From a virus, in IMG/VR virus record IMGVR_UViG_3300042452_000842, positions 1 through 28,168 of that record: a stretch of 28,168 nucleotides of DNA; one strand, given 5' to 3'. The position numbers and the translations under genes were made by a program. The notes beneath the pieces are model-generated. The model ran no database searches. It had not been told where the DNA came from and saw only the letters and a list, made by a program, of their open reading frames with translations. Positions 8,414 to 26,202 of the stretch are shown in pieces; position 1 is the first letter of the stretch, and each line of letters opens with the position of its first letter.

Positions 8414-8419
8414 TGCTGG

Positions 8420-8447
8420 ATTCTGGCCGAAGCATGGGTGGGGTCAA
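8420..8447 (-). promoter_or_regulatory. Candidate late promoter, leaderless for terminase
   Basis: Minus strand TTGACC (8447-8442), a 16-base spacer and CAGAAT (8425-8420), followed by six bases and the terminase ATG. The same -10 to ATG distance is seen at two excisionase-like genes (18164, 24258). The -10 has a C at its first position, so strength is uncertain. The 67-bp gap between integrase and terminase holds nothing else I can name. Confidence 0.45.
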
Positions 8448-8480
8448 CGTCACGATGCCCTCCTTCCGTGGTTGGTCATC

Positions 8481-9404: not shown

Positions 9405-9521
9405 GGCGGACCTCGAGGCGTACCGCTTCCGGGGGCTTCATGCCCCCTCGTGCGGCGAGGCGGTCGGCCAGTTTCCTTCCAGGCAAGCAGCCGTCAAACG
9501 CCCCCTACAACCGGAACCTCT

Positions 9522-9583
9522 CGGTTCTGTAGAGCATCGGTCTACGGAACCGAAGGTTGAAGGTTCGAGCCCTTCCGGGTGTA
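9522..9583 (+). other. attP: attP with the 3' part of tRNA-Arg(ACG)
   Basis: Bases 9530-9583 read as a tRNA from the D-stem 3' side onward: anticodon stem TCGGT/ACCGA (9537-9541, 9549-9553), loop CTACGGA with anticodon ACG at 9544-9546, T-arm GAAGG/CCTTC (9559-9563, 9571-9575), acceptor strand CGGGTGT and discriminator A at 9583. The 5' acceptor strand (ACACCCG) and D-arm are absent, so it is not a working tRNA. An imperfect inverted repeat, CGGTTCTGTAGA (9522-9533) and TCTACGGAACCG (9541-9552), matching at 11 of 12 positions around a 7-base centre GCATCGG, fits the core binding sites and crossover region of the integrase. On integration it would restore the host tRNA gene. The 9405-9652 stretch has no gene; it also holds a GGGGGC/GCCCCC hairpin at 9431-9447 in the integrase leader. 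Confidence 0.85.
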
Positions 9584-9652
9584 TTCGGCTGCTCAATGGA
9601 CACTAGGGTCCGGCGGCCGTGGAGGCAAGGAAATTCCACGGAGGGCCTGGAT

Positions 9653-9919
9653 GTGGCGACGGTGAGCGAAAGACACGCGGGCGGGCGACCACGGGTTCAC
9701 GAGCCGTCCGAACTTTTTGTGCGAGTCGAGCGGCTGGCGAGGAGTCGCGGCCTTCACCTGGACGAACTGGCCGCGAAGGCAGGAATCTCAACTCCAACGC
9801 TGTACCAGTTGCGAGACCCAAAAGTCTCGACGGCGAAGGCAATCGCCGCAGCGCTTGGAATCACGATTGACCGACTGATCGCTCCACCGCGGCGATCCTC
9901 TCGCCGAGCCAGCGCATGA
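9653..9919 (+). CDS. XRE-family (Cro/CI-like) DNA-binding regulator
   Basis: An 88-residue protein from GTG 9653, with GGAGG eight bases upstream. Residues 20-75 form a Cro/CI helix-turn-helix: VRVERLARSRGLHLDELAAKAGISTPTLYQLRDPKVSTAKAIAAALG, with the recognition helix near STPTLYQL. The C-terminus is basic (PPRRSSRR). It lies between attP and the methyltransferase and faces it tail to tail with a 59-bp overlap. Position and type make it the first candidate for the lysogeny repressor that binds the palindrome at 11340-11368, but binding is inferred. Confidence 0.8.
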   Translation: MATVSERHAGGRPRVHEPSELFVRVERLARSRGLHLDELAAKAGISTPTLYQLRDPKVSTAKAIAAALGITIDRLIAPPRRSSRRASA

Positions 9920-11294
9920 CCGGGACGGCCATTGAGTTGCCCAGCGCCCGGTATCGAGGCCCGTCTGCGGCAGGCTTCTTCCGATACTCAACCAGCGTGT
10001 AATCGTCGGGGAAGCCTTGCAGACGCTCGCACTCGCGGGGCGTCAAGCGGCGCACGGCCATTGCTTGCCGCAGGAACTGGTAGTTGTGCTCTGCGTTGGC
10101 ACGCAAAGCCTGCATCGTCGGGTTTTCTGTCTGGCCGCCACCGCTCGCCCACTGGACTTGAACCGGCTGGTCAGCGCAGACATTCACCGCATCACTGCGG
10201 CCGCCGTCACCTAGATTCGTCAACGCAGGAACAATGCCGTCTGGCATGACCTCTGGCACCTTGACGCCGTCTCTGGTTCGGTTGGCGAACGCCACACACT
10301 GCGGCTGGCCGCCGCCGCTTGGCGGCTGCTTGGTCATGGTCAAGGCGCAGTCATGCTTGAACTTCGGAGTCTGCTCCGTGGTGAACGCCACAACCGTCGT
10401 CGCCCGCGTGTCGCCCTGGTCGAAGCAGCTCATCGTCGGGCTGACTTCGCCAGGCACCCATGTCTCATCGTCGGTGGTGCTTTGGGCTCGCTTGGACTTG
10501 GTGTACGGGGTGGCGAGGAAGGTTTGCTGGTGGGTGCCTTGTAGGTTCAAGGCCGTGGAGCAATCGCCTAAGTCCCGCACTTCCTCTCGTTGGTTCTGCG
10601 CGAACGCAACGTAGGTTGTGTTATCAAGGTCGGGTCCGCGTCCTTTTGACAGGGCGTGTGATCCAAGAGGCTTTGCGAGGCCGCCGCTAGAGCCGTCCGC
10701 AAAGCCGGAGGCAGAGCCTTGCCCCGCCTTTCCGCGCGTCGGAGGATTCCCGAACACGCTTTCGCGCTCAAAAAGTACCGCTGCGGCACGTCGCCAGTCT
10801 CCAAGGTGGCCGACAACGAACACACGGCGGCGGCGCTGGGCGACTCCAAACCATTGAGCGTCAAGAACGCGGTAGGCGAACCCATACCCGAGTTCGCCCA
10901 ACGCCCCGAGGAAGGTTCCAAAATCCCGTCCTTTGCCACTACTGAGGACGCCCGGCACGTTTTCCCAAACGATCCATTTGGGCTGCATGACCGCAGCAAG
11001 CTGGACGAATCGGAGGGCCAGGTTGCCACGCGGGTCAGCCAATCCTCCTCGAAGGCCTGCGACGGAGAATGATTGGCAAGGGGTGCCTCCGACCAGAAGG
11101 TTAACTGGGCCGTAGCCATCAAGCATCTCCTCCGTGATCTTGGTCATGTCGCCCACATTCGGGAACCCGAAGCGGTGCTCGACAACGGCGGCCGGGAACG
11201 GCTCAATCTCGCTCGTCCATGAGCATTGCCAGCCCAGCGGCTGCCACGCAACGTGCACCGCTCCGATCCCATCACACACGCTCGCGTATTTCAT
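9861..11294 (-). CDS. C5 cytosine DNA methyltransferase
   Basis: A 477-residue methyltransferase that makes 5-methylcytosine. Motifs are in canonical order: I (SVCDGIGAVHVAW, residues 5-17), IV with catalytic Cys73 (GGTPCQSFS), VI (WENVPG, 110-115), VIII (QRRRRVF, 153-159), IX (RRLTPRECERLQGFP, from about 415) and X (RYRALGNSMA, 447-456). The stretch between VIII and IX, which holds the target recognition domain, is unusually long (about 250 residues) and rich in Thr/Gln/Ser. No restriction enzyme is adjacent, so it is an orphan likely used to shield the element's DNA or tune expression. GGGAGGG precedes the ATG; a TATTAT -10 lies 24 bases upstream of it. Confidence 0.95.
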   Translation of the reverse strand: MKYASVCDGIGAVHVAWQPLGWQCSWTSEIEPFPAAVVEHRFGFPNVGDMTKITEEMLDGYGPVNLLVGGTPCQSFSVAGLRGGLADPRGNLALRFVQLAAVMQPKWIVWENVPGVLSSGKGRDFGTFLGALGELGYGFAYRVLDAQWFGVAQRRRRVFVVGHLGDWRRAAAVLFERESVFGNPPTRGKAGQGSASGFADGSSGGLAKPLGSHALSKGRGPDLDNTTYVAFAQNQREEVRDLGDCSTALNLQGTHQQTFLATPYTKSKRAQSTTDDETWVPGEVSPTMSCFDQGDTRATTVVAFTTEQTPKFKHDCALTMTKQPPSGGGQPQCVAFANRTRDGVKVPEVMPDGIVPALTNLGDGGRSDAVNVCADQPVQVQWASGGGQTENPTMQALRANAEHNYQFLRQAMAVRRLTPRECERLQGFPDDYTLVEYRKKPAADGPRYRALGNSMAVPVMRWLGERIAAVERSVGQS

Positions 11295-15432: not shown

Positions 15433-16189
15433 CTGGTTCGCATTTTTCGGACGCGACTTCCTCGCGGCCACCCTTGGGTGGTCGGCCGAGGAGCGCGGCC
15501 ACTACATCACTCTCCTGGTGGCCCAGTGGGAGCAGGACGGCCTGCCCACCGATATGGCCCGCCTGGAGCTCATCAGTCCTGGCGTCTCCCGGTGCTGGAC
15601 GACGCTCGAATCGAAGTTCCCCGTAGGGCTTGGCGGCCGTCGCCGCAACTCCCGGCTCGAGCACGAACGGCACCTGGCCCACGAACGGAGCGAGCGGGCT
15701 CGTCAGTCCGCCTCCGCAAGATGGGCAAATAAGGAAAGCCAGGGAGGGGTAGATCCTGGCGGATGCGTGACGCAATGCGTGACGCATTGCTCGGAACCAT
15801 GCTCGGACGATGCTGCCATGACCATGTCTTATTCTCCTCCTCCTCCTCCCCCTCGCGGGGCTTGGGGAGGGGAGGAGGAGGCGGAAGGGTGGCAATCGCT
15901 CAGGAACGCCTGGAACGCCGTATGGGGCGAGAAGCGTCAGTGGAGGTCAACGGAGCCGCCCAAGGAGGCGATCGCCCGTCTGAGCGAGCCTGGGTGGCTC
16001 CAGGAGGCACTCCTGGCGATACCCGCCATCAAGAAAGGCGCGTGCAGCGGTTTTCGGACCCCTCCGACCCTCCGTCAGTTCTGCGGGAGCGACCCGGAGC
16101 GCGGCACCTTCGTGGCCCGGTTGCTGGGCGGTGAGTTCACCGACACGGAGCGGGCCGGCCACAGGCGACCGGCGGGGGCTGGACTATGA
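15422..16189 (+). CDS. DUF1376-like replication protein
   Basis: A 255-residue protein; the ATG at 15422 follows GGAGG by five bases. The N-terminal 70 residues (SWFAFFGRDFLAATLGWSAE, ERGHYITLLVAQWEQDGLP, TDMARL) fit DUF1376, which opens many phage replication-initiation proteins. A basic linker, a Pro-rich stretch (YSPPPPPPRG) and a C-terminal domain (WNAVWGEKRQWRSTEPPKEA) follow. Such proteins usually bind the origin and recruit a helicase. There is no DnaB/DnaC gene here, so host helicase is presumably used. It overlaps the HNH gene end by 11 bases. Confidence 0.75.
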   Translation: MAGSWFAFFGRDFLAATLGWSAEERGHYITLLVAQWEQDGLPTDMARLELISPGVSRCWTTLESKFPVGLGGRRRNSRLEHERHLAHERSERARQSASARWANKESQGGVDPGGCVTQCVTHCSEPCSDDAAMTMSYSPPPPPPRGAWGGEEEAEGWQSLRNAWNAVWGEKRQWRSTEPPKEAIARLSEPGWLQEALLAIPAIKKGACSGFRTPPTLRQFCGSDPERGTFVARLLGGEFTDTERAGHRRPAGAGL

Positions 16190-16479
16190 GCGACCTTGTC
16201 GAGCGGTTGGTTGGGGTGGCTGAGTTTGTTGGCCGAGAGCCGCGGGCGGTTTTGTACGAAGCCGTGAAGGAGATCGAACGGCTGCGGTCGCTGACGCGGT
16301 TCCAGGATGGCGTGATCCGCAGCGGCGACGTGGCGTGCCTGACGACAGCGGAGCGGGAGGCGATTGCCGCCGGTCTTGGTGCGCTGGAACGACTCTACGA
16401 ATACTCGCCGCCGATCAGCCAGCCAATCTATGAGCAGCACGCACCGACGCTGCGGGCGCTGCTGGAGCGGACGAAGTGA
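16186..16479 (+). CDS. Hypothetical early protein
   Basis: A 97-residue protein whose ATG overlaps the previous stop (ATGA). It is mostly helical (SDLVERLVGVAEFVGREPRA, VLYEAVKEIERLRS, TAEREAIAAGLGALERLYEY), with a coiled-coil-like heptad around EIERL. Its end overlaps the next gene's GTG by four bases. Not recognised. Confidence 0.65.
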   Translation: MSDLVERLVGVAEFVGREPRAVLYEAVKEIERLRSLTRFQDGVIRSGDVACLTTAEREAIAAGLGALERLYEYSPPISQPIYEQHAPTLRALLERTK

Positions 16480-16727
16480 GCCAACACCAACGCATCCTCG
16501 AGTCGCCAAGCGTCGGCACGACGCGGGGGCAGGAAGCCGTGGTGCGGGCGATCCGCAAGGCCAGGTCGCGGCACCCGTGGTACGGGCCTTCATACCGAGA
16601 GATTGCTGACGAGCTCGGCGTGACAGTCAACGACGTGGCGCAGAAGGTCAGCCGGCTCTTACGCGACGGTCGCGTGAAAGTAGATCACGGCGTGGCACGA
16701 TCCCTGCGAGTAACGGACAGAAAATGA
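16476..16727 (+). CDS. LexA-N-like winged-helix protein
   Basis: An 83-residue protein from GTG 16476. Residues 20-78 resemble the LexA DNA-binding domain: EAVVRAIRKARSRHPWYGPS, YREIADELGVTVNDVAQKVS, RLLRDGRVKVDHGVARSLRV, including the GPSYREIA turn and the wing. It has no protease domain, so it is not a full LexA. It may bind operators within the element. It overlaps the resolvase gene by four bases. Confidence 0.75.
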   Translation: MSQHQRILESPSVGTTRGQEAVVRAIRKARSRHPWYGPSYREIADELGVTVNDVAQKVSRLLRDGRVKVDHGVARSLRVTDRK

Positions 16728-17194
16728 CAGTTTTTGGTATCGACCCAGGTGTCGGCGGTGCGATCGTGATGGTTGCGGAGCCAGGACTCGTGCGTGCCGA
16801 GGATATGCCGGTCATCGAAATACGAGGCCGCAGGCATATCGACACCCACAAACTCATCTCGGTGCTCAAGAGTTTTCCGTTGAGGCCAGACATGGTGATC
16901 CTCGAGCACGTCCAGGGCGTGCAGGGCACCGGCGCCACGTCGGCGTTTTCGTTTGGACGTGGGTTTGGGTTGCTTGAGGGAACGATTGCAGCAATCGGCT
17001 ATCCCTTGACGCTGGTTCGGCCGCAGTTGTGGACGAAAGATCTCGGCGTGAGTAGGGACAAGAACGCGAGACGAGCGGCGGCATCGAATCTGTGGCCGAA
17101 ATACAGTCATCTGTTTGAGCGAGTGAAGGACGACGGGCGGGCAGACGCGGCGTTGCTCTGCCATTGGTGGATGCTGCGAGGCAAGGCTGCTTGA
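16724..17194 (+). CDS. RuvC-like Holliday junction resolvase
   Basis: A 156-residue RNase H-fold nuclease. Likely catalytic acids: Asp7 in FGIDPG, Glu61 in MVILEHV, and Asp136/Asp141 in KDDGRADAALL. Length matches RuvC-type phage resolvases (about 150-180). It would cut branched recombination or replication intermediates before packaging. It sits in the same overlapping gene string as the Sak4-like ATPase and SSB-like protein. Confidence 0.9.
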   Translation: MTVFGIDPGVGGAIVMVAEPGLVRAEDMPVIEIRGRRHIDTHKLISVLKSFPLRPDMVILEHVQGVQGTGATSAFSFGRGFGLLEGTIAAIGYPLTLVRPQLWTKDLGVSRDKNARRAAASNLWPKYSHLFERVKDDGRADAALLCHWWMLRGKAA

Positions 17195-17229
17195 CGCATT
17201 GCGTAGGATCGACGCGAAAGGAGTTTCCT

Positions 17230-17511
17230 GTGGGACGAATGAAGGATTTGCTTGTCGCTGTCTACGGTGGCGGCTACCGGGCGGTCGAAGCAGCCGAGCA
17301 GCTCGCGGCCATGAACCGCTGGACGCTGTGCACCGATCAAGAGCCGGAAATCGTCAGCGAGTCGTTGAGCCAGGTCGTTCTGGCGTGGCGGCCTGGCGAA
17401 GAATGGCCGCAGCCGGCTTTTGTCCAGCTCGAGAACGGCAATCGGGTCTGGAAGTGGAGCCGGCAAGGAAGGCCGACGCACTGGATGCCGATGCCGGAGG
17501 TGCCGGAGTGA
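17230..17511 (+). CDS. DUF551-like small protein, end of early operon
   Basis: A 93-residue protein. AAAGGAG stands seven bases before a GTG at 17230; ATG 17239 is an alternative. The last third (VVLAWRPGEEWPQPAFV, ending THWMPMPEVPE) resembles DUF551, whose members end in HWMPLPEPP and are common in phage early regions. The first third is helical (AVEAAEQLAAMNRW). Function unknown. A terminator-like hairpin follows the stop. Confidence 0.7.
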   Translation: MGRMKDLLVAVYGGGYRAVEAAEQLAAMNRWTLCTDQEPEIVSESLSQVVLAWRPGEEWPQPAFVQLENGNRVWKWSRQGRPTHWMPMPEVPE

Positions 17512-17524
17512 ATCTGTCGTTATT

Positions 17525-17553
17525 CTTGGCCAGCCGGCCAAAGAAAGTTTTTT
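17525..17553 (+). terminator. Terminator-like hairpin after the early operon
   Basis: TTGGCC (17526-17531), loop AGCC, GGCCAA (17536-17541), then six T at 17548-17553 after a six-base gap. The short stem and the gap make it weaker than a textbook terminator, but the position, 15 bases after the last gene, fits. Confidence 0.5.
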
Positions 17554-17573
17554 AGGTCGTGTGGAGTTCGAAA

Positions 17574-18020
17574 GGGGGGGCGGCCGGCGGCCGGCCGGCG
17601 GAAGTACCTTGGTGTACGCCCGTACACTATCCCCCCCACTAGTGGTATTTCGATAGCCTCGCCCGCCCCCCCTATCGGTAGTATTTCGATGGCCGGCCGA
17701 TCGGCCGGCATGATGGCCGGCCGGCGTGCTCGTGCTCGTGCTCGTGACGGTGCATCATCACGAGCGATGGGACGATGGCCGCTCGATTGACAGCCTGGCC
17801 GGCCGATGGCCGGCCACGTCACGAGACGCCAGCGGCAAGCCTGGCCGACGGTGCACCGTCACGATCGGCCGGGCGCCCGGCCAGGCTATCGAAATACCCT
17901 GGCCGGCCGTGGCCACGTCACGAGCGGCCGGACGATGGCCGGCGGCCAGGTCGCCGGGCTGGCCGGCCATCGTGCACCGCCACGAGACGGCCGACGGGCG
18001 GCCGTGCTCGTGACGTGGCC
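17574..18020. repeat. Noncoding repeat-rich region, candidate replication or partition locus
   Basis: No credible gene lies between 17512 and 18163. The stretch holds a perfect 16-bp inverted repeat, GGTATTTCGATAGCCT (17644-17659) against 17883-17898, and another direct GTATTTCGAT at 17681-17690. A 14-mer GGCCACGTCACGAG occurs at 17812-17825 and 17911-17924 and inverted at 18007-18020, with shorter relatives at 17741-17748 and 17858-17865. There is also a palindrome GTGTACG-CC-CGTACAC (17612-17627) and many GGCCGGCC boxes. Iterated sites between two operons fit an origin or a centromere-like site; this is inference. Opposite-strand frames here look like chance products of high GC. Confidence 0.6.
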
Positions 18021-18075
18021 AGCCCCCACCGATTAGGGGATAGGTGGGGCGGCGGATTCTCACGATACCAAATGT

Positions 18076-18086
18076 CCAATCGGCAA
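18076..18086 (-). promoter_or_regulatory. Inverted copy of the CCGATTGG operator box
   Basis: CCAATCGGCAA here is the reverse of TTGCCGATTGG, the box found between -35 and -10 in the promoters downstream. It sits 54 bp before the copy at 18141-18151, in opposite orientation, and has no good -10 of its own, so it may be a second operator for the same regulator. Confidence 0.55.
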
Positions 18087-18128
18087 GTGTGCCGGGCGCA
18101 GCGGAATTCCAGAAAAATTTTTCATGGC

Positions 18129-18157
18129 TTGCAACCATTGTTTCCGATTGGTAGATT
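18129..18157 (+). promoter_or_regulatory. Promoter with operator box, leaderless for the first HTH gene
   Basis: TTGCAA (18129-18134), 17-base spacer ending TTTCCGATTGG, TAGATT (18152-18157), six bases, then the ATG at 18164. No ribosome binding site exists, so the message probably starts at the ATG. A 12-bp A/T palindrome GAAAAATTTTTC (18112-18123) just upstream looks like an UP element. Confidence 0.7.
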
Positions 18158-18163
18158 AACGAC

Positions 18164-18739
18164 ATGAACACGGCAGCACACAAGCAACGGGCGGCGGAAT
18201 TCGGCCTCGATTGGTCGATCGTGCTTGAACTCTACCGGGAGGCCCGCGAACTAGAGCGTCAGGACGTTGAGCGGCTGACGGCCGATCGTCACGAAGCCTA
18301 TAGCGGGCTGGCCGGCCGCGTGCACGGCGGCCACGTCAAGGCAACCCACCGCCGCGCGTTCCGCGACGGTGGCGACGCCACGAACGTGGCCGGCCTTGAC
18401 GTGGTGGCCGCCGGCCGCGGAATGACGGCCGATGAACTCTTCGCCGAGCTGGCCGCCGACGCGCCAGGCTTGCGGCCGGCCGACGACGTGATGATCGAAG
18501 CGATCGATCGCGCCGCCCGCATGATGGCCGCCCCGGCCGCCGCCCCGGCCGCCGACATGGTGCCGCTCGTGAGCGGCGCGATCGTCGCCGACGTTACCGA
18601 ACAATGGATGCGGCGCATGGTCAAGGCCGGACGGATTCGCGGCTGCAAGGCCGGCCGCAATTGGCTCGTGTCGATCGCCGATTGTGAATCGTTCCGCCGG
18701 CATCCAACGGCCGGCCGCCCGCGCGTTACCCCCTTCTAA
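18164..18739 (+). CDS. Excisionase/MerR-like HTH protein
   Basis: A 191-residue protein. Residues 1-120 are helical and Ala-rich (LDWSIVLELYREARELERQD, then GGHVKATHRRAFRDGG), unrecognised. The C-terminal 55 residues (VTEQWMRRMVKAGRIRGCKA, GRNWLVSIADCESFRRH) form an excisionase-type winged helix ending with the usual RPR tail. It is expressed from its own promoter carrying operator boxes on both sides, which suggests autoregulation. It could be the excisionase, a regulator of the CCGATYGG promoters, or even a small-terminase-like protein, since lambda gpNu1 has a related fold; I favour regulator. Confidence 0.75.
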   Translation: MNTAAHKQRAAEFGLDWSIVLELYREARELERQDVERLTADRHEAYSGLAGRVHGGHVKATHRRAFRDGGDATNVAGLDVVAAGRGMTADELFAELAADAPGLRPADDVMIEAIDRAARMMAAPAAAPAADMVPLVSGAIVADVTEQWMRRMVKAGRIRGCKAGRNWLVSIADCESFRRHPTAGRPRVTPF

Positions 18740-18760
18740 CCGCCCCGGAGACCGCCACCG

Positions 18761-19000
18761 ATGACAGCCGCTCAATTCTGCCGATTCGCCGCCCGCATGG
18801 CCGACATGGACGCCGCCGCCCGCGACGCCGTGGCCGCCCTGGCCGCCGCCGACGTGGCCGCCGCCGACGCCGCCGCCCCGCGCGGCACGACCGCCCGCCG
18901 CGACGCCGAGCGGCTGATTCTCGAATTGCACGATGCCGGCGCCCCCGTGGCCGCCGGCCGCCCGACGGCCGCCCGCACCATGTCGCTTTTCGCCGATTGA
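18761..19000 (+). CDS. Small Ala-rich hypothetical protein
   Basis: A 79-residue protein behind the recurring leader GGAGACC...ATG used across this region. About a third of its residues are Ala (MDAAARDAVAALAAADVAAA), with a C-terminal half of more normal composition (RRDAERLILELHDAGAPVAA, ending TMSLFAD). Not recognised. Low complexity lowers confidence, but the leader and tight spacing favour a real gene. Confidence 0.55.
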   Translation: MTAAQFCRFAARMADMDAAARDAVAALAAADVAAADAAAPRGTTARRDAERLILELHDAGAPVAAGRPTAARTMSLFAD

Positions 19001-19029
19001 CCCGCCCCCACCAACGGAGACCCGCCACC

Positions 19030-19365
19030 ATGACCCGCGCCGACTTCGAGACCGCCGCCGCCGATCGACTCACGATCGCCGCCACCGCCACGGCCGCCCG
19101 CCTGGCCGCCGCCGCCCGTGCCGCGGCCGCCTGGCTTGACGGCCTGGCCGCCGAGCTGGCCGCCGCGGCTTCGCCGCTCGCCCGCGAGCGTGCCGCCGCG
19201 GCCAGGTGCCGCCCGTGCCCGGTGCCGCCGCCCGTGCCGCCCGCCCGCCCCGCCGCGGCCATCGTGCCGCCGCCGGTGCCGCCCGCTGCCCGGCCGCCGA
19301 TCGCCCCGCCCGCCGTTGTGCTCGTGACGCCGACGGCGGCCGCCCCCGTGCTCGTGACGATTTGA
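19030..19365 (+). CDS. Ala/Pro-rich hypothetical protein
   Basis: A 111-residue protein behind CGGAGACCCGCCACC-ATG. The first half is an Ala-rich helix (RLAAAARAAAAWLDGLAAEL), the second half Pro/Val-rich (PVPPPVPPARPAAAIVPPPV), perhaps a flexible linker or stalk. The end of the gene contains two CTCGTGAC sequences, the same core as the repeats in 17741-18014. Not recognised. Confidence 0.5.
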   Translation: MTRADFETAAADRLTIAATATAARLAAAARAAAAWLDGLAAELAAAASPLARERAAAARCRPCPVPPPVPPARPAAAIVPPPVPPAARPPIAPPAVVLVTPTAAAPVLVTI

Positions 19366-19393
19366 CCAACCCCAACCCCGGAGACCCGAGACC

Positions 19394-19813
19394 ATGACCA
19401 CGCCCCGCCCGATCGCCCCGGCCCGATACGTCGCCCGTCGAATCAGCGACCCCCGCAGCCGCGGCGCCTGCTACTGGTTCGAGGTGGAAAGCGTAGACGC
19501 CGACGGCCGCCGCTCGTTTGTGGCGATCGCCGACACGCGCGAGGAGGCCCGCGACATCGTGCGGCGCCTCAATGCCGCCGCCAGCGACCAGGCCCGCCGG
19601 GCCGCCTACGCCCGGCTGACCGCTGCCCGCGAGCGTGCCGCGGAATTGCAGGCCATGCGTCGCGGCTTCGCCGCGGCCACGTTCCGCCCGTTCCGAACGC
19701 CGGGCGCGATGGCCGGCCTGGCCGTCGCCCGCATGGACGCCGCCCGCGAACTCCGTGCCGCCCGCGCCGCCTACGACGCGGCCGCCGCGGCTCAGTTTGA
19801 CTCGACCACTTGA
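19394..19813 (+). CDS. Hypothetical protein, basic helical
   Basis: A 139-residue protein behind CGGAGACCCGAGACC-ATG. The N-terminal 60 residues look like a small alpha/beta domain (CYWFEVESVDADGRRSFVAI, ADTREEARDIVRRLNAA); the rest is a long Arg/Ala helix (YARLTAARERAAELQAMRR). A DNA- or RNA-facing role is possible. It ends within the -35 of the ardC promoter (its TGA is part of TTGACC). Not recognised. Confidence 0.6.
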   Translation: MTTPRPIAPARYVARRISDPRSRGACYWFEVESVDADGRRSFVAIADTREEARDIVRRLNAAASDQARRAAYARLTAARERAAELQAMRRGFAAATFRPFRTPGAMAGLAVARMDAARELRAARAAYDAAAAAQFDSTT

Positions 19814-19837
19814 CCCGTTGTTGCCGATTGGTAGAAT
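19810..19837 (+). promoter_or_regulatory. ardC operon promoter with operator box
   Basis: TTGACC (19810-19815), 16-base spacer ending TTGCCGATTGG, TAGAAT (19832-19837). The leader to the ardC ATG is about 45 bases and carries GAGGAGACC. It shares its spacer box with the promoters at 18129, 21772, 24224 and 24764. Confidence 0.7.
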
Positions 19838-19888
19838 CCCCACAACACGCGGCCACAACGGCCGCACAACCCGAGGAGACCAGAGACC

Positions 19889-20854
19889 ATGCCCACCACC
19901 ACCACCACCACCACCCGCGCCGACGTTTACCAGACCGTCACCGATGCGATCGTCGCCCGCCTCGAATCCGGCGAGTTGGCCCCGTGGCACCAGCCGTGGA
20001 AGGCCGGCAACGCCGCCGGCCCCGTGTCGCGCCCGCTGCGCCACAACGGCCAGCGGTATTCCGGCGTGAACGTGTTGTGGTTGTGGATGGCCGCCGAGGC
20101 CGCCGGCCATACATGCCCGTACTGGCTGACCTACCGGCAAGCGCAGGAGCTGGGCGGCCACGTCCGCCGCGGGGAGAAGTCTACGCCCGTCGTGTTTGCG
20201 TCCACGTTCACGAAGCGCGAGACGCTCGCCGACGGCACCGCGAAAGATCGGAAAATCCCGTTCCTGAAAACCTACGCGGCGTTCAACGCGCAGCAGTGTG
20301 ACGGCCTGCCCGAGCACTACTACCGGCAGCTGCCCCCGCCCGCCGGCCACGTTGACCCGCTGCCGGCCGTGCTCGACTTCGCCCGGCACACCGGCGCGGA
20401 CATCCGCACGGGCGGCGCCCGTGCTTGCTACGTGCCCAGCGGCGACTACGTGCAGATGCCCGACGCGGCCACGTTCGAGAGCGCCGAGGCCCACGCTGGC
20501 ACGCTCGCCCACGAGCTGGCCCACTGGACGGGCCACGCGTCGCGGCTCGACCGCGGGATGGCCCAAGCGAAGCGATTCGGAGACGACGCCTACGCGGCCG
20601 AGGAGCTGGTAGCCGAACTGGCCGCCGCGTACCTGGCCGCCGATCTCGGTTTCGAGGCCCAGCCCCGCGACGACCACGCCGCCTACCTGGCCTCGTGGCT
20701 CCGCGTGATGAAGGCCGACAAGCGCGCCATTTTCACCGCGGCCAGCGCCGCCAGCCGGGCGGCCGACTTCCTGCACGGCTTGCAGCCCGGCGGCGCAGCG
20801 GCCCCCGCCGAGGAGACCGACGCCGAGACCGACGCCGAGCCGGCCGCGGCTTGA
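19889..20854 (+). CDS. ardC: ArdC-type antirestriction protein
   Basis: A 321-residue protein with the ArdC layout. The N-terminal domain (DVYQTVTDAIVARLESGELA, then PWHQPWK and RYSGVNVLWLW) binds single-stranded DNA in the family. The C-terminal part is a zincin-like metallopeptidase domain with HELAH at residues 208-212 and EELVAE near 238-243 supplying the third ligand. ArdC proteins protect incoming plasmid or phage DNA from host restriction. The N-terminus has a run of seven Thr from repeated ACC codons. It has its own CCGATTGG-box promoter, so it is probably made when that regulon opens. Confidence 0.93.
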   Translation: MPTTTTTTTRADVYQTVTDAIVARLESGELAPWHQPWKAGNAAGPVSRPLRHNGQRYSGVNVLWLWMAAEAAGHTCPYWLTYRQAQELGGHVRRGEKSTPVVFASTFTKRETLADGTAKDRKIPFLKTYAAFNAQQCDGLPEHYYRQLPPPAGHVDPLPAVLDFARHTGADIRTGGARACYVPSGDYVQMPDAATFESAEAHAGTLAHELAHWTGHASRLDRGMAQAKRFGDDAYAAEELVAELAAAYLAADLGFEAQPRDDHAAYLASWLRVMKADKRAIFTAASAASRAADFLHGLQPGGAAAPAEETDAETDAEPAAA

Positions 20855-20964
20855 CGCCTGGCCGCCCCGGCACCCCCCGCCGCCCGCGGGCGGGGGAGAC
20901 CGGGCCGGCCCGGCACAACGCCGGCCACCGCGACCCACGAGAGACCCCGATGAGGCCCGAGACC

Positions 20965-21348
20965 ATGACCACGAAGCGAAAGACCGCCCGCACCGCCCCC
21001 ACCGACCAGCGGCCGACGTGCCCGAACTGCGGCGGACACAACGTCGAGGATACCGCCTGGATCACCTACCGCCCCGATGGCACCGCCGAGATCGTGAACG
21101 GCGAAGGCCCGTTCGGCGACGACGAGGGGACATGGTGCCACGACTGCCAGGAGCACGCCGGGCTGAGTTTCCCCAAGCTCACGCCCGCCGACGACGCCCG
21201 CCGGCAGTCAGCCGCCCACGCCCGCGCCCACGGGCCGGAGTTGCTCGCCGTCGCCCGCTGGGCGGTTGACCAGATAGCAGACGACCTTGACCCCGAGCAC
21301 CAGGAAGCGCTCGCGGCTGCTCGTGAGCTGCTCGCGCGGCTCTCGTGA
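20965..21348 (+). CDS. Zinc-ribbon hypothetical protein
   Basis: A 127-residue protein. Two in-frame starts are possible; I prefer ATG 20965 because it has the region's usual GAGGCCCGAGACC leader (20950 is the alternative). Residues 20-65 form a zinc ribbon: CPNC, a beta segment (DTAWITYRPDGTAEIVNGEG), then CHDC and H. The C-terminus is helical (PELLAVARWAVDQIADDLDP). It probably binds zinc; DNA contact or protein binding is open. It follows ardC after a 110-bp GC-rich spacer. Confidence 0.7.
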   Translation: MTTKRKTARTAPTDQRPTCPNCGGHNVEDTAWITYRPDGTAEIVNGEGPFGDDEGTWCHDCQEHAGLSFPKLTPADDARRQSAAHARAHGPELLAVARWAVDQIADDLDPEHQEALAAARELLARLS

Positions 21349-21392
21349 AACCAACCACCACAACCCCACCCCAACCCAGGAAACCCCAACCC

Positions 21393-21752
21393 ATGAACGC
21401 CATCACGCTCGCCGCCCTTCGCCACTTCGAGCACGCCGCCGCCGTGCTCGCCAGCCTGGCCCCCGATCTAGTTTCGACAGACGACCGAGACCGGCGCGTG
21501 CCCGTGTCGCTCGACTCGCCGGCCTGGCCGGCCATCGACGACGCGCTCGATCTTTTGTACGCGATCGAATCCGAGCCGGACGCCGACACGCCGGCCGGAT
21601 TCGCACACTGGCACCGCGTCGCCTGGCTGGAGGTTGTGCGGGCGGCCGCCGCCGCAGCCGGCCACGGCGCCGACGACGCGCCACGGTGGGCGAGCATGAC
21701 CGCCGCCCAGCTGGCCGACGAACTCTTCTACCTGGCCGACTTCCAAGGCTAG
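21393..21752 (+). CDS. Hypothetical helical protein
   Basis: A 119-residue protein from ATG 21393 with CAGGAAACC upstream. It is mostly helical (AALRHFEHAAAVLASLAPDL, WPAIDDALDLLYAIESEPD, WASMTAAQLADELFYLADFQ) and acidic. The frame is open upstream to 21345, but that part overlaps the preceding gene end and leader. Not recognised. Confidence 0.65.
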   Translation: MNAITLAALRHFEHAAAVLASLAPDLVSTDDRDRRVPVSLDSPAWPAIDDALDLLYAIESEPDADTPAGFAHWHRVAWLEVVRAAAAAAGHGADDAPRWASMTAAQLADELFYLADFQG

Positions 21753-21771
21753 AAAAAATATCCTCCCCCCC

Positions 21772-21800
21772 TTGCACCCATTGTTTCCGATTGGTAGATT
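21772..21800 (+). promoter_or_regulatory. Promoter with operator box
   Basis: TTGCAC (21772-21777), 17-base spacer ending TTTCCGATTGG, TAGATT (21795-21800), preceded by an A-rich tract (GAAAAAATAT). From TTGCA to AGATT it is almost identical to the 18129 promoter. It drives the 21853-24190 gene string with a leader of about 45 bases. Confidence 0.7.
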
Positions 21801-21852
21801 GCACAGAGACACGCGGCCGCCGGCCGCACAACCCACGAGGAGACGAGAAACC

Positions 21853-22473
21853 ATGTCCGCCCGTTTCAAGATTCACGGCATGACCGACGAGCCTGGCCAC
21901 TGTGAGCTATGCGGCACTTTCTGCCCGCGCCGCCGTGTCGCCGTTGAGCTGATCGCCGACGACGGCAGCACCACCGGAGACGTGCAGCTGTGGGGCGTCG
22001 TCTGTGCCGCCGAGGCCCGGCACGGCCGCCGCGACTCGACCCTAGCCAGGCAGCTCCAGGGAGAGGCCGAGGAGGCCGGCGCCTACACCGGCCCGGCCCG
22101 CGGCCGCCGCCGGATGCCGGCCGGCGACCGCCCCCGCCGGCAGACCCGGCGCGAGGCCTTCCGCCTGGCCGCGATCGCTGAAGCCGACGCCCGCGCCGTT
22201 TGGTTCCGCACGTCGTCGCCCGTGCCGGCCGCGCTCGCCGCCGCCGAGGCCGATGGCCGGCCGTGGCTGGCCGCCGAGGCCCGCTACACCAACACCGGCC
22301 ACCCTCGCGCCGCCGGCCACGCCTACCGCCACGACGACGGCCGACACGCGATCGTCAACAGCACCAGCCCGGCCGACGTGGCCCGGTTCGAGCGGCACGG
22401 CTTCCGGCACGTCGCCGGCGCCGAGCTGGCCAACTGGCCGACCGTTGCCGAGGCGCTTGCGGCCACCGCCTAG
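21853..22473 (+). CDS. Hypothetical protein with N-terminal zinc-finger-like motif
   Basis: A 206-residue protein behind GAGGAGACGAGAAACC-ATG. Residues 15-35 contain CELCGTFC plus later Cys, a possible zinc knuckle (EPGHCELCGTFCPRRRVAVE). The middle is basic (RGRRRMPAGDRPRRQTRREA) and the C-terminal third has ARYTNTGHPRAAGHAYRHDD and WPTVAEAL. First gene behind the 21772 promoter. Not recognised. Confidence 0.65.
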   Translation: MSARFKIHGMTDEPGHCELCGTFCPRRRVAVELIADDGSTTGDVQLWGVVCAAEARHGRRDSTLARQLQGEAEEAGAYTGPARGRRRMPAGDRPRRQTRREAFRLAAIAEADARAVWFRTSSPVPAALAAAEADGRPWLAAEARYTNTGHPRAAGHAYRHDDGRHAIVNSTSPADVARFERHGFRHVAGAELANWPTVAEALAATA

Positions 22474-22568
22474 CGGGCGGCCGCCCCCGCCCGCCCCGGC
22501 ACGCCGCCGGGCTGGACGGGGCCGGCCGTTCGCCGACCCGTAGCCCCCAACCCCAGGAGCCCATAGCC

Positions 22569-23087
22569 ATGACCACGACCGCCACCACCCACGCCAACCA
22601 CGCCCACACGCCCGGCCCGTGGAGGCACAACCCGAGGACCGGACGCGTGATGCTCAACGGTTCCGCGGTCTATTCGATCCGCGACCGCTGCGCCGACCCC
22701 GACGCCCCGCCCCGGTTCAATCCGGCCGACGTTCAATTGATGGCGGCCGCGCCCGAGCTGCTCGCCGCCCTGCGTGCCGCCATGCAGCTGCTCGACCGCG
22801 TTCACGCGGTCCACGCTTTGCAGTTTTCCGTAGATACGGCACGCGACTTGTCGGCCGCCTGGCTCGCCGCCAGCCGGGCCATCGAATCCGCAACCCTCCC
22901 CCTACGCCGCTGGAGCGTCACCGCCCTCGTGGCGGAATGGAATCCGGCCACCGGCGATTACGACGAAATCGACCTTGACCACGAGCCACGCGCCTACGAC
23001 GCCGCCGAGGCCGAGGAACTGGCCCGCGATGCCTGGAGCGACCACGGCCACAACCCCGACCGCGTGAAGGTGCGCCCGCTCGACTGA
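22569..23087 (+). CDS. Phage hypothetical protein with HTPGPW...LMAAAPELL motif
   Basis: A 172-residue protein. The first 70 residues carry a motif pair very common in phage early proteins of unknown role: HTPGPWR near residue 13 and DVQLMAAAPELLAALRAAM near 58-75. The rest (RRWSVTALVAEWNPATGDYD, EIDLDHEPRAYDAAEAEELA) is an added acidic domain. Start at ATG 22569 behind CAGGAGCCCATAGCC. Widespread family, function unknown. Confidence 0.75.
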   Translation: MTTTATTHANHAHTPGPWRHNPRTGRVMLNGSAVYSIRDRCADPDAPPRFNPADVQLMAAAPELLAALRAAMQLLDRVHAVHALQFSVDTARDLSAAWLAASRAIESATLPLRRWSVTALVAEWNPATGDYDEIDLDHEPRAYDAAEAEELARDAWSDHGHNPDRVKVRPLD

Positions 23088-23185
23088 CCCGGCCGCCCCC
23101 ACGCCGGCCCCGGCAACCGCCGCGGCCGGCCAGGGGGATGCCGGCGACAACCGCCGACCAGCCCGCCACCCAGGAGACCGAGACC

Positions 23186-23464
23186 ATGAACGCCACGCTC
23201 CACCCCTATCCGATCGCAGCCCCCGCCCCGCACGCCTGGAAGGTCGTGCACGAGTGGACAGACCAGCAGCCCAATAACGGCTGGTCGCTCGAGCGCTTCG
23301 CCGTGCCGATCGGCGACCACGCCACCGAGGCCGCCGCCCGCGCCCACGTCGCCGCCCGTGTCGCAGAGGGTATGCAGGCTGGCGAGGGCTATTTCATCCG
23401 CGACCCCGACGGCACCGTGATCCACCGCACCTACGCCACCAAATCCACGCGGCCCCGGATGTAG
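23186..23464 (+). CDS. Hypothetical protein
   Basis: A 92-residue protein behind CAGGAGACCGAGACC-ATG. It has a compact alpha/beta look: WKVVHEWTDQQPNNGWSLER, FAVPIGDHATEAAARAHVAA, GEGYFIRDPDGTVIHRTYAT. One of the small cassettes in this region. Not recognised. Confidence 0.6.
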   Translation: MNATLHPYPIAAPAPHAWKVVHEWTDQQPNNGWSLERFAVPIGDHATEAAARAHVAARVAEGMQAGEGYFIRDPDGTVIHRTYATKSTRPRM

Positions 23465-23582
23465 CCCACGCCGCCCCCGCCACCCCGCCCCAGCACGGAC
23501 GCCGGCCAGCGGGGAACCGGGGCCGGCCTGGCCACGCCGGCCACGCCCACACCCGCCCACGCCAACCAGGAGACCCACGCCC

Positions 23583-23858
23583 ATGCCCGCCTACGCCGCA
23601 ACCGAGATCGACCACGCCGCCTACCCCCGCCTCTGCCGGCGGATGAGCGAGGCCGCGCTGCAATTCACGATCGCCGACGCCCGCGCCGCCCTGGCCGCCA
23701 TGCCCGACGGCCCGAAAGCCGGCTACTACGCCGATGAAATCCATTACGCCCACGCCGAGCTTGCCCGCCGCGGCCGAGGCGGCCGGAGGGACACGCGGCC
23801 GCGGCTGCTCGCCGCCGACACGCACGCCGCCGGCCTGGCCGCCGTGCTCGAGGATTGA
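23583..23858 (+). CDS. Hypothetical protein
   Basis: A 91-residue protein behind CAGGAGACCCACGCCC-ATG. It is helical (DHAAYPRLCRRMSEAALQFT, IADARAALAAMPDGPKAGYY, ADEIHYAHAELARR) with an Arg/Gly-rich turn and a second Ala-rich helix. It follows a 118-bp GC-rich spacer. Not recognised. Confidence 0.6.
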   Translation: MPAYAATEIDHAAYPRLCRRMSEAALQFTIADARAALAAMPDGPKAGYYADEIHYAHAELARRGRGGRRDTRPRLLAADTHAAGLAAVLED

Positions 23859-23890
23859 CCCACGCCCGCCCACAGTCAGGAGCCACGCCC

Positions 23891-24190
23891 ATGCCCACGC
23901 CCGCCCCGCAGCTCGAGCTATTCGACAAAGGCCCGCCCCCGCCCCCGCCCTGCAAATGGATCGCACACCGCGGGCCGTGGGGCCGGAACCTTACATGGAC
24001 GCGGCCAGATATGCCCGGCATCGTCGTCCGCCACTGCGGCCACGGCACGGCCAGCTACCCCTACTACGTCACCCTCGGCGACTGCCGCGAGCCGGCCAGC
24101 CCCGGCACCTTCCGCACGCTCCCGGAGGTGCAGGCCGCCGCCGCACGCCTATGGAGCCACGCCCGCCCCGGAGCCACGCCGCCCCAATGA
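23891..24190 (+). CDS. Hypothetical protein
   Basis: A 99-residue protein from ATG 23891 behind CAGGAGCCACGCCC. It starts MPTPAPQLELFDKGPPPPPP, where QLELFD resembles short peptide ligands (such as the sliding-clamp-binding QLxLF), followed by a compact domain with HRGPWGRNLTWTRPDMPG and HCGHGTASYPYYVTLGDC. Clamp binding is only a suggestion from the QLELF motif. Not otherwise recognised. Confidence 0.6.
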   Translation: MPTPAPQLELFDKGPPPPPPCKWIAHRGPWGRNLTWTRPDMPGIVVRHCGHGTASYPYYVTLGDCREPASPGTFRTLPEVQAAAARLWSHARPGATPPQ

Positions 24191-24223
24191 AGCCACGCCC
24201 CCCCAGCCACGCCGCCCCCGGCA

Positions 24224-24251
24224 TTGACCGCAGCGGCCGATCGGCAATAAT
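24224..24251 (+). promoter_or_regulatory. Promoter of the double-HTH gene, leaderless
   Basis: TTGACC (24224-24229), 16-base spacer ending GGCCGATCGGC, AATAAT (24246-24251), six bases, then ATG 24258. The CCGATCGG here is the fully palindromic form of the box seen in the other promoters. There is no ribosome binding site. Confidence 0.6.
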
Positions 24252-24257
24252 CCCCCC

Positions 24258-24734
24258 ATGCCCACCATCGACCCGAAAAAATACGTCTCGATCCAGACCG
24301 GCGCCCGCCTGGCCGGCGTCGCCCGAATCACGCTCCGCGGGGCAATCAAGTCCGGCCGCGTCAAAGGCATCGAAATCGACGGCTACTATTTCGCCCTCCG
24401 CGCCGATTGCGAGAACTTCACCCGCGACCCGATCGGCCGAGGCCGCCCGCCACCCAAGAAAGCCACGCCCGCCAAGGCCGCCAAGGCCGGACGCTGGGGC
24501 TCGGCCAGAAAGACGGCCGCCGGCCGGTTCGACCCGGCGAAATACTTGTCGGTTGGCGCCGCCGCCAAGGCCGCCGGCGTGTCCCGGTTTTGGATGCGGC
24601 GGCTACTCCAAGAAGGCCACGTCGCCGGCATCGAAATCGACGGCCAAGCGTTCGCCCTGCGGACGGCCGTGGAAGCGTATGCAGCCACGCCCGCCGGCCA
24701 CGGCCGGCCGCGCGGCGGGAGCCACTCCGGCTAG
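24258..24734 (+). CDS. Tandem-duplicated excisionase-like DNA-binding protein
   Basis: A 158-residue protein built of two copies of one HTH module joined by a Lys/Ala linker. Copy 1 (about residues 9-62) reads KYVSIQTGARLAGVARITLR...GRVKGIEIDGYYFALR; copy 2 (about 96-150) reads KYLSVGAAAKAAGVSRFWMR...GHVAGIEIDGQAFALR. Both end in a GRGRP/GHGRP tail. Excisionase-like domains usually occur singly and bind as multimers, so a built-in dimer suits the closely spaced CCGATTGG boxes. It has its own leaderless promoter with the same box, suggesting self-control. Best candidate for the regulator of this regulon. Confidence 0.8.
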   Translation: MPTIDPKKYVSIQTGARLAGVARITLRGAIKSGRVKGIEIDGYYFALRADCENFTRDPIGRGRPPPKKATPAKAAKAGRWGSARKTAAGRFDPAKYLSVGAAAKAAGVSRFWMRRLLQEGHVAGIEIDGQAFALRTAVEAYAATPAGHGRPRGGSHSG

Positions 24735-24763
24735 CCGCTGCCCTGCTTTGGAAAATTCATGCC

Positions 24764-24810
24764 TTGCATCGTAGTTGCCGATTGGTATTCTGGTTGCCGA
24801 TTGGTAAGAT
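24764..24810 (+). promoter_or_regulatory. Two overlapping promoters with tandem operator boxes
   Basis: GTTGCCGATTGGTA occurs at 24774-24787 and again at 24793-24806, 19 bp apart. The first box ends at a -10 TATTCT (24786-24791) served by -35 TTGCAT (24764-24769); the second ends at -10 TAAGAT (24805-24810) with TTGGTA (24782-24787) at -35 position. They drive the 24846-26869 genes. Confidence 0.65.
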
Positions 24811-24845
24811 TCCCGCGCCCCTGCCACCCCCGGAGAAAAACCACC

Positions 24846-25355
24846 ATGCTCGCCGAGATCCAGCAGTTCGAGGCCGGCCGCACCTACTACTGCCGCTCGA
24901 GTTGCGACCACGACACGGTATTTCGCTACACGGTGCTATCCCGCACCGCCCGCCAAATCACGATCCGCGACGACTGCGGCCACGTCAGCCGCCGCGGCAT
25001 CAAGGCCGATGGCGGCGCCGAGTTCTGCTACCCCGAGGGCCGCTACAGCATGGCCCCGGTGATCCGCGCCGACCGCCGCCTCGACCCGGCCACGCCGCTG
25101 CCCGGCCGGGACGGCCTCTACCCGATCGGCACGAAGGTTGTCGCGCTCGACGGCTTCACGATCCGCGTCGGCCAGGTTGCCGACCACACAAGCGACCAAT
25201 TCGGCCGCTGGCACGTCGTCGTCATGGATGGAGCTTTCGAGACGGTGGGAAGCATCCGCGACCGCGACGCCCTCGGTATCGGCTGGCGAGTTGCCAAGGC
25301 CGACGAACTAAGCCGGCACGGCCAGACCGAAGGCCCGTGCTACACCGGCGACTGA
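24846..25355 (+). CDS. Hypothetical protein with a repeated plasmid/phage domain
   Basis: A 169-residue protein behind CGGAGAAAAACCACC-ATG. The N-terminal 80 residues (FEAGRTYYCRSSCDHDTVFR, YTVLSRTARQITIRDDCG, ending PEGRYSMAPVIRA) recall a small beta-rich domain found in plasmid and phage accessory genes. The C-terminal half (PIGTKVVALDGFTIRVGQVA, RWHVVVMDGAFETVGSI) looks like a second beta domain. First gene behind the double promoter. Function unknown. Confidence 0.65.
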   Translation: MLAEIQQFEAGRTYYCRSSCDHDTVFRYTVLSRTARQITIRDDCGHVSRRGIKADGGAEFCYPEGRYSMAPVIRADRRLDPATPLPGRDGLYPIGTKVVALDGFTIRVGQVADHTSDQFGRWHVVVMDGAFETVGSIRDRDALGIGWRVAKADELSRHGQTEGPCYTGD

Positions 25356-25381
25356 CTTACCACCACCCCAGGAGAACGCCC

Positions 25382-25693
25382 ATGCCCACGCCCGCCCATG
25401 ACCCCGACGCGATCGTGCTCGAGCCGTGCCGCCCCGCCGATGCCACGCTGACGCTGCCAACGCCCGACCCGATCGCCGCCGCCGTCGTCACCGCCCTGGT
25501 GGCCGGCGACGAGCTGCCAGACGAGTTCACCATCCTCGACACCTACGCCGACTGCGGCGATCCGCCCTCGTGGCACCGCTGCCGCGAGGTATGCGTTGCC
25601 GTGGCCGACGCCATGCGGCTGCTCGGCCTGCCGATCCGCACGACCTACACCATGCTCGACAACATTCCCGACCCCGACACCGACCACGAGTGA
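25382..25693 (+). CDS. Hypothetical protein
   Basis: A 103-residue protein behind CAGGAGAACGCCC-ATG. It is acidic overall, with a short beta lead (DAIVLEPCRPADATLTLP) and helices (IAAAVVTALVAGDELPDEFT, EVCVAVADAMRLLGLPI). It precedes the Prim-Pol gene by 17 bases. Not recognised. Confidence 0.6.
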   Translation: MPTPAHDPDAIVLEPCRPADATLTLPTPDPIAAAVVTALVAGDELPDEFTILDTYADCGDPPSWHRCREVCVAVADAMRLLGLPIRTTYTMLDNIPDPDTDHE

Positions 25694-25710
25694 AAAGGAG
25701 ACCCACGCCC

Positions 25711-26202
25711 ATGCACACGCTCGCCCCCCTCGCCGCCGCCGGTTGCCTGTTCGTCCGCCTCGCCCGTGGCGAGAAACGGCCGATCGGCTCCGGCTGGCAA
25801 CACAAAGGGACCGACGACCTGGATGCCGTCGCCGCCTGGCTCGCCGCCCGCTCCAACGTCGGCATCCTGCTCGGGCCGGAATCCGGCGTCGTGGACGTTG
25901 AATACGACGAGCCGGAGGGCCGGGAGCACCTGGCCGCGTTCGGGATTTTCGACTTGCGAACGCCGACGTGGCGATCGGCCCGCGGGGAGCACCGGCTATT
26001 CCGCTGGGAACCGTGGATGCCGGCCACGGCGGCCATGAAGGTGGACGCGATCGAGATACGGATTGGCGGCCGCGCGGCTCAGTCGGTGCTCCCGCCGAGC
26101 ATCCACCCCAGCGGCGCCGCCTATGAGTGGATCGTCAGCCCCGCCGACGTTGCTATCGCCCCGTTCCCTGCTCAACTACTCGCACAGGAGGTACTCGCAT
26201 GA
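25711..26202 (+). CDS. Stand-alone Prim-Pol (bifunctional primase/polymerase) domain protein
   Basis: A 163-residue protein that matches the archaeo-eukaryotic-type Prim-Pol domain of plasmid and phage replication proteins. Seen: LARGEKRPIGSGWQ near the start, NVGILLGPESGVVDVEYDEP with the DxE pair Asp62/Glu64, GEHRLFRW with His94, and IEIRIGGRAAQSVLPPSIHP then SGAAYEW with a third acidic residue near 112-115. These are the catalytic positions of the family. Usual members are fused to a helicase or are several hundred residues long; this one is only the domain. It may prime the element's replication with a host helicase. AAAGGAGACC precedes the ATG. Confidence 0.85.
   Translation: MHTLAPLAAAGCLFVRLARGEKRPIGSGWQHKGTDDLDAVAAWLAARSNVGILLGPESGVVDVEYDEPEGREHLAAFGIFDLRTPTWRSARGEHRLFRWEPWMPATAAMKVDAIEIRIGGRAAQSVLPPSIHPSGAAYEWIVSPADVAIAPFPAQLLAQEVLA

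Follow-up and report, generated by a model that had tools for sequence, protein, structure and literature searches.

The closest working model for the locus described here would be mycobacteriophage L5, in which a repressor bound at operators and at scattered stoperators keeps the prophage silent. The available portions of two reports describe L5-type sites as asymmetric 13-mers that number 20-30 per genome, are oriented with transcription, and fall within promoter regions and the short gaps between genes (PMC9283540, PMC6550527). The sites of Xis/RDF and BldC-type winged-HTH proteins offer a second point of comparison, as presented in the available parts of the reports on 186 Apl (PMC7498355), BldC (PMC5859096), and RdfS (PMC11963761).

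Here we analyse one whole IMG/VR virus record of 28,168 bases (the window), in which a conserved non-coding element (17,520-18,163) heads an early operon. In our best reading, the region is the control region of one early operon of a temperate tailed phage, for which a planctomycete host is only a guess. The element contains an array of the box GTATTTCGAT. As with the L5-type sites in the portions cited above, a short site is scattered over a temperate phage genome, mostly in one polarity and with lineage-specific motif variants, and a copy or cluster lies at the early-operon region near the integrase. Also as in L5, many copies of one site are present (54 in 10/10 array-bearing records) and nearly absent from relatives without the system (1 in 31 loci). 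The comparison with those portions also reveals differences. L5 carries 20-30 sites, whereas each record here, possibly a fragment, holds 2-12 exact copies; L5 sites occupy short intergenic spaces, whereas 43/54 boxes lie inside called genes, some overlapping start codons; and polarity here appears to follow the genome rather than gene direction. Unlike the L5 sites, the array consists of helically spaced copies accompanied by palindromes, some lineages have dyad forms, and the binder is represented by candidates only. Given these differences, we file the system as one working like stoperators, not as a member of that class.

Compared with the Xis/RDF and BldC systems, as covered by the available text of those reports, the locus likewise has direct-repeat sites adjoining an integrase gene and an Xis-like gene, and the downstream protein ends in an Xis/BldC-like domain. 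Unlike RDF arrays, which are spaced at one helical turn, the boxes are separated by about three turns (32-34 bp in 31/44 pairs). The large extra N-terminal domain of the downstream protein, the genome-wide boxes, and a second, short Xis-like gene in 7/10 records are further departures from Xis/RDF systems.

An array with scattered copies of its box points to a hitherto undescribed network of protein-bound sites that would control or handle the phage genome. We tentatively propose that the boxes are sites for a phage-encoded DNA-binding protein and that, by analogy, they may work like the operators and stoperators of L5. The protein would bind the box (GAGTATTTCGATRGC DNA). At the helically spaced cluster, binding would create a complex of protein and DNA governing how strongly the operon for the Xis-like protein, ArdC, and PrimPol is expressed; binding at the scattered copies would act on the rest of the genome. 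The position of the array counts against this proposal: its boxes are well upstream of the promoter, and none lies on it. A clade that has the array but few or no dispersed boxes (G035-G039) also counts against it, as does the merely partial match between array variants and dispersed variants described below. Should the boxes be repressor sites, they would form a stoperator-like immunity system beyond the mycobacteriophages, in phages that this analysis knows from metagenomes alone; as polar DNA-handling sites, they would amount to a counterpart of Chi or KOPS encoded by a phage. In both cases, the box and the gene beside it offer a simple means of recognising a group of temperate phages that is widespread but poorly known, and a protein-DNA pair open to direct testing.

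Organisation of the window and the element

The left part of the window lies mainly on the minus strand and contains tail fibre, head decoration, capsid/protease, portal, terminase, and integrase genes. A plus-strand replication and recombination block (Sak4-like, winged HTH, HNH, primosomal-like, and RuvC-like) precedes the array, which is followed by a very GC-rich plus-strand operon that includes the Xis-like protein, ArdC, and PrimPol (Table 1). The true start of PrimPol is probably downstream of 25426. Base composition changes across the array, from 60-66% GC with positive GC skew in the preceding block to about 69-77% GC in the operon (18164-26200), where the coding-strand GC skew is negative, an unusual C-rich coding strand.

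The gene order in relatives is TerL(-), RuvC(-), Sak4(-), integrase(+), array, Xis-like(+). Compared with this order, the integrase-to-RuvC block of the window is inverted (breakpoint areas 8413-8481 and 17194-17560), which places RuvC(+) against the array and integrase(-) against TerL. No inverted repeat of at least 12 bases linking the two breakpoint areas was found, and the arrangement may be either a real inversion or an assembly error. In three relatives (L039, L046, and L064), integrase and array are separated by an inserted small gene whose translation, as judged by eye, shows a likely signal peptide and resembles PDZ sequences. Among 50,697 phage records, none matched the DNA of window positions 16000-19400.

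Table 1 Features of the element and neighbouring genes (window coordinates)
Feature	Position	Strand	Remarks
Dispersed box inside TerL	6806-6815	+	antisense; not conserved there in 7 aligned relatives
tRNA-Arg(acg)	9506-9584		
C5 cytosine methyltransferase	9861-11294		
Dispersed box inside RuvC-like gene	16814-16823	-	antisense
Conserved GAGTTCGAA	17564-17572	+	upstream edge of the element; GAGTTCGAAGCC or GTTCGYAGCCGGGGC in aligned relatives
GC-rich palindrome H1	17579-17601	+	stem kept in relatives, sequences differ
Linker GGAAGTACC	17600-17608	+	nearly always GGAAGGACC in the alignment of relatives
Palindrome H2 GTGTACGCCCGTACAC	17612-17627	+	
Box 1 GTATTTCGAT	17645-17654	+	relatives have a box at the same place
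Box 2 GTATTTCGAT	17681-17690	+	36 bp after box 1; usually 32-34 in relatives
Variable repeat stretch	17697-18050		GGCCGGCC, GTCACGAG/CTCGTGAC, GACGGTGCACCGTC
Box 3, inverted	17888-17897	-	L118 and L115 also have inverted copies downstream of direct ones
Conserved element GGATTCTCACGATACCAAATGTCC	18054-18077	+	
A/T tract AAAAATTTTT	18113-18122	+	kept in relatives
Sigma-70-like promoter TTGCAA-17-TAGATT	18129-18157	+	CCGATTGG in spacer
191-aa protein, first gene of operon	18164-18739	+	helical N-terminal domain and C-terminal Xis/BldC-like winged HTH
ArdC-like anti-restriction protein	19889-20854	+	same operon as 191-aa protein
PrimPol-domain protein	25426-26202	+	same operon as 191-aa protein

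The array plan is conserved in many relatives. From an upstream edge motif, GAGTTCGAA or GTTCGYAGCC, it proceeds through a palindrome, GGAAGGACC, one or more further palindromes, 2-4 GTATTTCGAT boxes in a GCGAGTATTTCGATAGCCGACC-like context, variable repeats, TTCTCAnnTnCCAAnTGTCC, and an A/T tract to a sigma-70-like promoter (TTGAC-17-TAnnnT, with CCGATNGG in the spacer). The mismatch limit of the scan for the 3′ motif missed the window and some relatives, which were read directly from the sequence; for L022 and L023, 3′-motif positions were counted from the locus start. In the comparison of the 5′ part, L051, L055, and L062 are without the linker because their contigs begin past it. The variable stretch differs in nearly every phage, and other tandem repeats (for example GGTCGAT, GACC, GGTGAG, and GGAGCCT) take the same place. 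Hypervariable minisatellites with unrelated units occupy this part of the array upstream of the Xis-like gene in L023, L024, L025, L036, L046, L150, and L164.

The initial annotation placed an unexplained repeat array between operons at 17574-18020. The array is real, but this span is too narrow, and the element extends from about 17560 to 18163. Its description of the repeats is borne out: the 16-bp perfect inverted repeat (GGTATTTCGATAGCCT at 17644 and AGGCTATCGAAATACC at 17883), a third GTATTTCGAT copy (17681), a 14-mer present twice direct and once inverted (GGCCACGTCACGAG at 17812 and 17911, inverse at 18007), and the 16-bp near-palindrome GACGGTGCACCGTCAC (17847) are all present. The core said to recur at the end of the gene at 19030 is found as CTCGTGAC at 19321 and 19351. 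These copies do recur, but they lie inside coding sequence at 19.3 kb, and CTCGTGAC is not common to the arrays of relatives and does not belong to the conserved element. Likewise, the many GGCCGGCC boxes are there (7 in the region), yet 19 of the 26 copies in the window fall outside the region, which identifies GGCCGGCC largely as regional composition.

In 300 dinucleotide shuffles of 17520-18163, none reached the 7 GGCCGGCC copies (shuffle mean 0.14), and none contained an A/T-rich 10-mer in three copies, as the region does. The longest inverted repeat (18 bp) was reached in 4/300 shuffles and the longest direct repeat (16 bp) in 1/300. The stretch was also said to lack genes, and this agrees with the single open reading frame searched (17758-18183, minus strand), which gave 0 PHROG matches and lies where relatives differ strongly; no conserved protein encoded in the region was found. 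Comparison with relatives, which the annotation had suggested, shows that repeats are kept and that boxes are usually 32-34 bp apart. What it missed is that only the GTATTTCGAT box is conserved, GGCCGGCC and CTCGTGAC being variable part or composition, and that this box is scattered over the genomes of relatives.

No Rfam family matches the window at the gathering score, and the region gives four weak matches far below the cut-off. When the whole 5′ part of the element is folded as RNA, that of the window is not unusually stable (z -1.04), but those of L024, L025, and L026 are (z -3.3 to -5.5). Palindrome pairing is kept in relatives with almost no G-U, which makes DNA palindromes at least as likely as RNA. 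The contigs L024, L026, L047, L050, L053, L057, L058, and L060 start at or inside palindrome H1; the opening letters of L053 are presumably sequencing adapter.

Conservation of the array in relatives

An IMG/VR search with the 191-aa protein encoded by the first gene of the operon returned seven relatives, and the four with enough sequence (L020, L024, L025, and L026) have 2-3 GTATTTCGAT boxes upstream. Scanning for pairs of boxes separated by 12-42 bases yielded 31 stretches: 27, each on a viral contig, have the same anatomy, and the other four (L043, L044, L054, and L056) were left out as A/T-rich or coding chance matches. Applied to 84,980 genomes of bacteria and archaea, the box-pair scan gave one stretch, in a Paludibacter MAG. 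This match is probably due to chance, and thus no integrated copy and no attB were found. Among the matches listed for the box letters in the PMC open-access literature, as far as their text was available, most are lists of primers or guides, or biomedical papers on other subjects.

A test independent of the box used a profile of 26 proteins of the 191-aa type, which recovered 77 loci: 56 with full-length or nearly full-length proteins and 21 with the C-terminal Xis domain only. At least 900 bases of upstream sequence are available for 32/56 full-length homologues, and the other 24 were left out. A box or variant lies upstream of 31 of these 32 (22 exact, 9 variant). All 22 exact boxes are within 900 bases, as is the variant GTATTTCGCA of L149 and L164; the variants of L160, L161, L152, L153, L154, L156, and L157 lie beyond that distance, where the same operon begins. 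The contig of the sole box-less homologue, L163, stops about 1.1 kb upstream of the gene. The exact box was found at 0/21 loci encoding only the C-terminal Xis domain.

Neighbouring exact boxes outside the usual spacing class are 21-88 bp apart. Variant lineages contain dyad sites, such as AGTATTTCG-GAAT-CGAAATACT or GTATTTCG-CAAT-CGAAATAC, and the form GTATTTCG-N4-CGAAATAC occurs in L147, L158, and L160. Such dyads fit reading by a dimeric DNA-binding protein. Their occurrence suggests that the window's lineage, with its asymmetric box, may have a decayed or specialised half-site.

Dispersed copies of the box

The box is also scattered over main-lineage genomes. With array regions and piece overlaps masked, the 54 exact copies outside arrays are spread over 359,780 bases of the ten array-bearing records, while the 31 array-less relative loci that contain the single copy comprise 258,269 bases. 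The box is the commonest of 5,913 10-mers with seven A/T, and the reversed pattern is absent from all 14/14 records. In between-record alignments (mean identity about 72%, leaving out those above 88% identity or below 80 bases), the box is kept at aligned positions in 40/134 cases, compared with 3,146/52,084 (6.0%) for other A/T-rich 10-mers and 64,306/754,595 (8.5%) for all 10-mers. The GTATTTCG-based box is thus a phage-specific site kept at 3.5-5 times background, which indicates selection, although at most positions it is gained or lost.

Seen from the array, 43 boxes point one way and 11 the other. Relative to genes, which were called only roughly from homology and longest open reading frames, 24 are sense, 19 antisense (several of them supplied by the PrimPol ortholog set), and 11 outside called genes. 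Because the boxes in the plus-strand PrimPol gene are antisense, polarity appears to follow the genome more than transcription. Several dispersed boxes overlap a Shine-Dalgarno/ATG as GGAGTATTTCGATG, perhaps no more often than by chance. Separate selection on the box inside PrimPol was considered and dropped, as only some lineages keep this box and others have lost it. Variants partly follow through from array to genome: in G029, whose array has the variant GTATTTCGCA, the record contains 6 GTATTTCGNW sites (one within the array), and every one is of this variant, but G024, G025, G026, and G027 contain mixtures of box variants.

Polarity and turnover raise an alternative that we consider quite unlikely, in which the dispersed boxes are global DNA-handling sites (Chi-like, KOPS-like, packaging, or condensation) that act by density and polarity, and the array is a loading or end point. 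The 43-to-11 bias relative to the array is as this explanation would predict, as is the loss of 94/134 aligned places while every main-lineage record keeps some boxes. In these short genomes, however, the sites are too few for the usual Chi-type spacing, and an array-bearing clade with few or no dispersed boxes (G035-G039) would be left without this function.

The main rival to stoperator-like control is a replication origin. Iteron-type origins combine iterated sites, an A/T tract, hairpins, and a promoter with replication genes next door. The locus resembles them in its repeated sites, A/T tract, hairpins, and adjoining promoter and replication genes. The boxes would be iterons, the A/T tract the unwinding site, and the palindromes priming or single-strand sites, with PrimPol supplied by the operon. 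The spacing of the iterated boxes at about three helical turns and an A/T tract set within GC-rich DNA fit this model. GC skew, the check proposed in the initial annotation, places the cumulative maximum no more than about 0.75 kb from the array in 4/6 long records; the peak is absent in G018 and G019, and the operon downstream confounds it through its C-rich coding strand. Dispersed copies of one main polarity, 54 in all, are unexpected for iterons and unlike known origins of this type. The DnaB_C helicase domain is found in 0/9 records, and no known initiator protein was recognised in the records examined. On balance we regard an origin as unlikely.

Attachment site, packaging, and partition

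The surroundings of the array also bring to mind attP, with the boxes as arm-type sites of the integrase or as Xis sites. An integrase gene lies just upstream in L020, L034, L037-L041, L045, L046, L048, L049, L061, and L064, and the Xis-like gene just downstream encodes a C-terminal domain that matches the folds of Pukovnik Xis and RdfS. The boxes, however, do not follow the integrase, which disfavours this explanation: integrases of two types precede the same boxes, one type sharing only about 24-30% identity with the integrase of the window, and exact boxes are absent from 20/22 loci with window-type integrases (51-87% identical), although some of these end too early (for example L072 and L076). 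Box spacing also differs from the one helical turn reported for RDF sites. Further, a tRNA-Arg(acg) gene lies on the other side of the integrase in the window and in 3/17 integrase loci scanned. We consider attP at the array very unlikely.

Transfer RNA genes are common attachment sites. The tRNA-Arg(acg) is divergent from the integrase, about 100 bases upstream of its start, both in the window and in the array-less relatives L071 (2859-2936), L079 (3807-3881), and L087 (3828-3901), and is probably a phage-carried attachment-site tRNA.

Two further functions, a packaging site (cos/pac) or a centromere, appear highly improbable. The ends of many contigs fall within or close to palindrome H1, which is what genuine DNA ends would produce, but many others run unbroken through it, and we read the ends as assembly breaks caused by the hairpin, since a perfect GC-rich hairpin is hard to sequence or assemble. 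Array and TerL are separated by about 10.6 kb in L034 and by 9.4 kb in L048, a distance of about 10 kb that makes a lambda-type cos beside the terminase unlikely. A centromere of the ParABS type is disfavoured because ParB_N (PF02195) and the ParA-like AAA_31 (PF13614) were found in 0/9 array-bearing records, with positive controls. The initial proposal of an origin, a centromere-like site, or a packaging site is therefore partly supported: neither of the outcomes named as refuting it occurred, and it correctly identified a conserved cis-acting multi-site element, but neither a ParABS centromere nor a terminase-adjacent cos is favoured.

Candidate box-binding proteins

Returning to sites for a phage-encoded DNA-binding protein, the 191-aa protein is the first candidate binder, as yet unproven. 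Its predicted structure is confident (mean pLDDT 91), and among the best Foldseek matches, none below E 0.001, the C-terminal winged HTH resembles Pukovnik Xis, RdfS, and BldC. The N-terminal helical domain has no convincing PDB match by Foldseek, and a PDB sequence search with the profile of the family gave 0 matches. A small XRE-type repressor in G014 is the second candidate: this 77-aa Cro/CI-type (XRE) HTH protein is encoded between the early block and the integrase (L092:16758-16991).

The second, short Xis-like gene lies in the operon of the 191-aa protein (G013:24759, G014:23996, G016:24661, G019:4189, G001:6173, G025:20202, and G026:22819). Where present, it would be the likelier true excisionase, leaving the long 191-aa protein free for another role.

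A more far-reaching proposal, which we hold to be somewhat unlikely, is that the locus represents an undescribed genome-wide site system. In this proposal, a GTATTTCG array with palindromes at the int/early-operon junction and polarised copies whose density is maintained would be read by a new two-domain genome silencer or organiser derived from Xis, and the box would have arisen from a dyad operator turned asymmetric half-site.

The phages L152-L157, L161, and L163 have leaders with repeated CCCCCGAACGTGGAAACG or CGAACGTAACAAC motifs directly before start codons.
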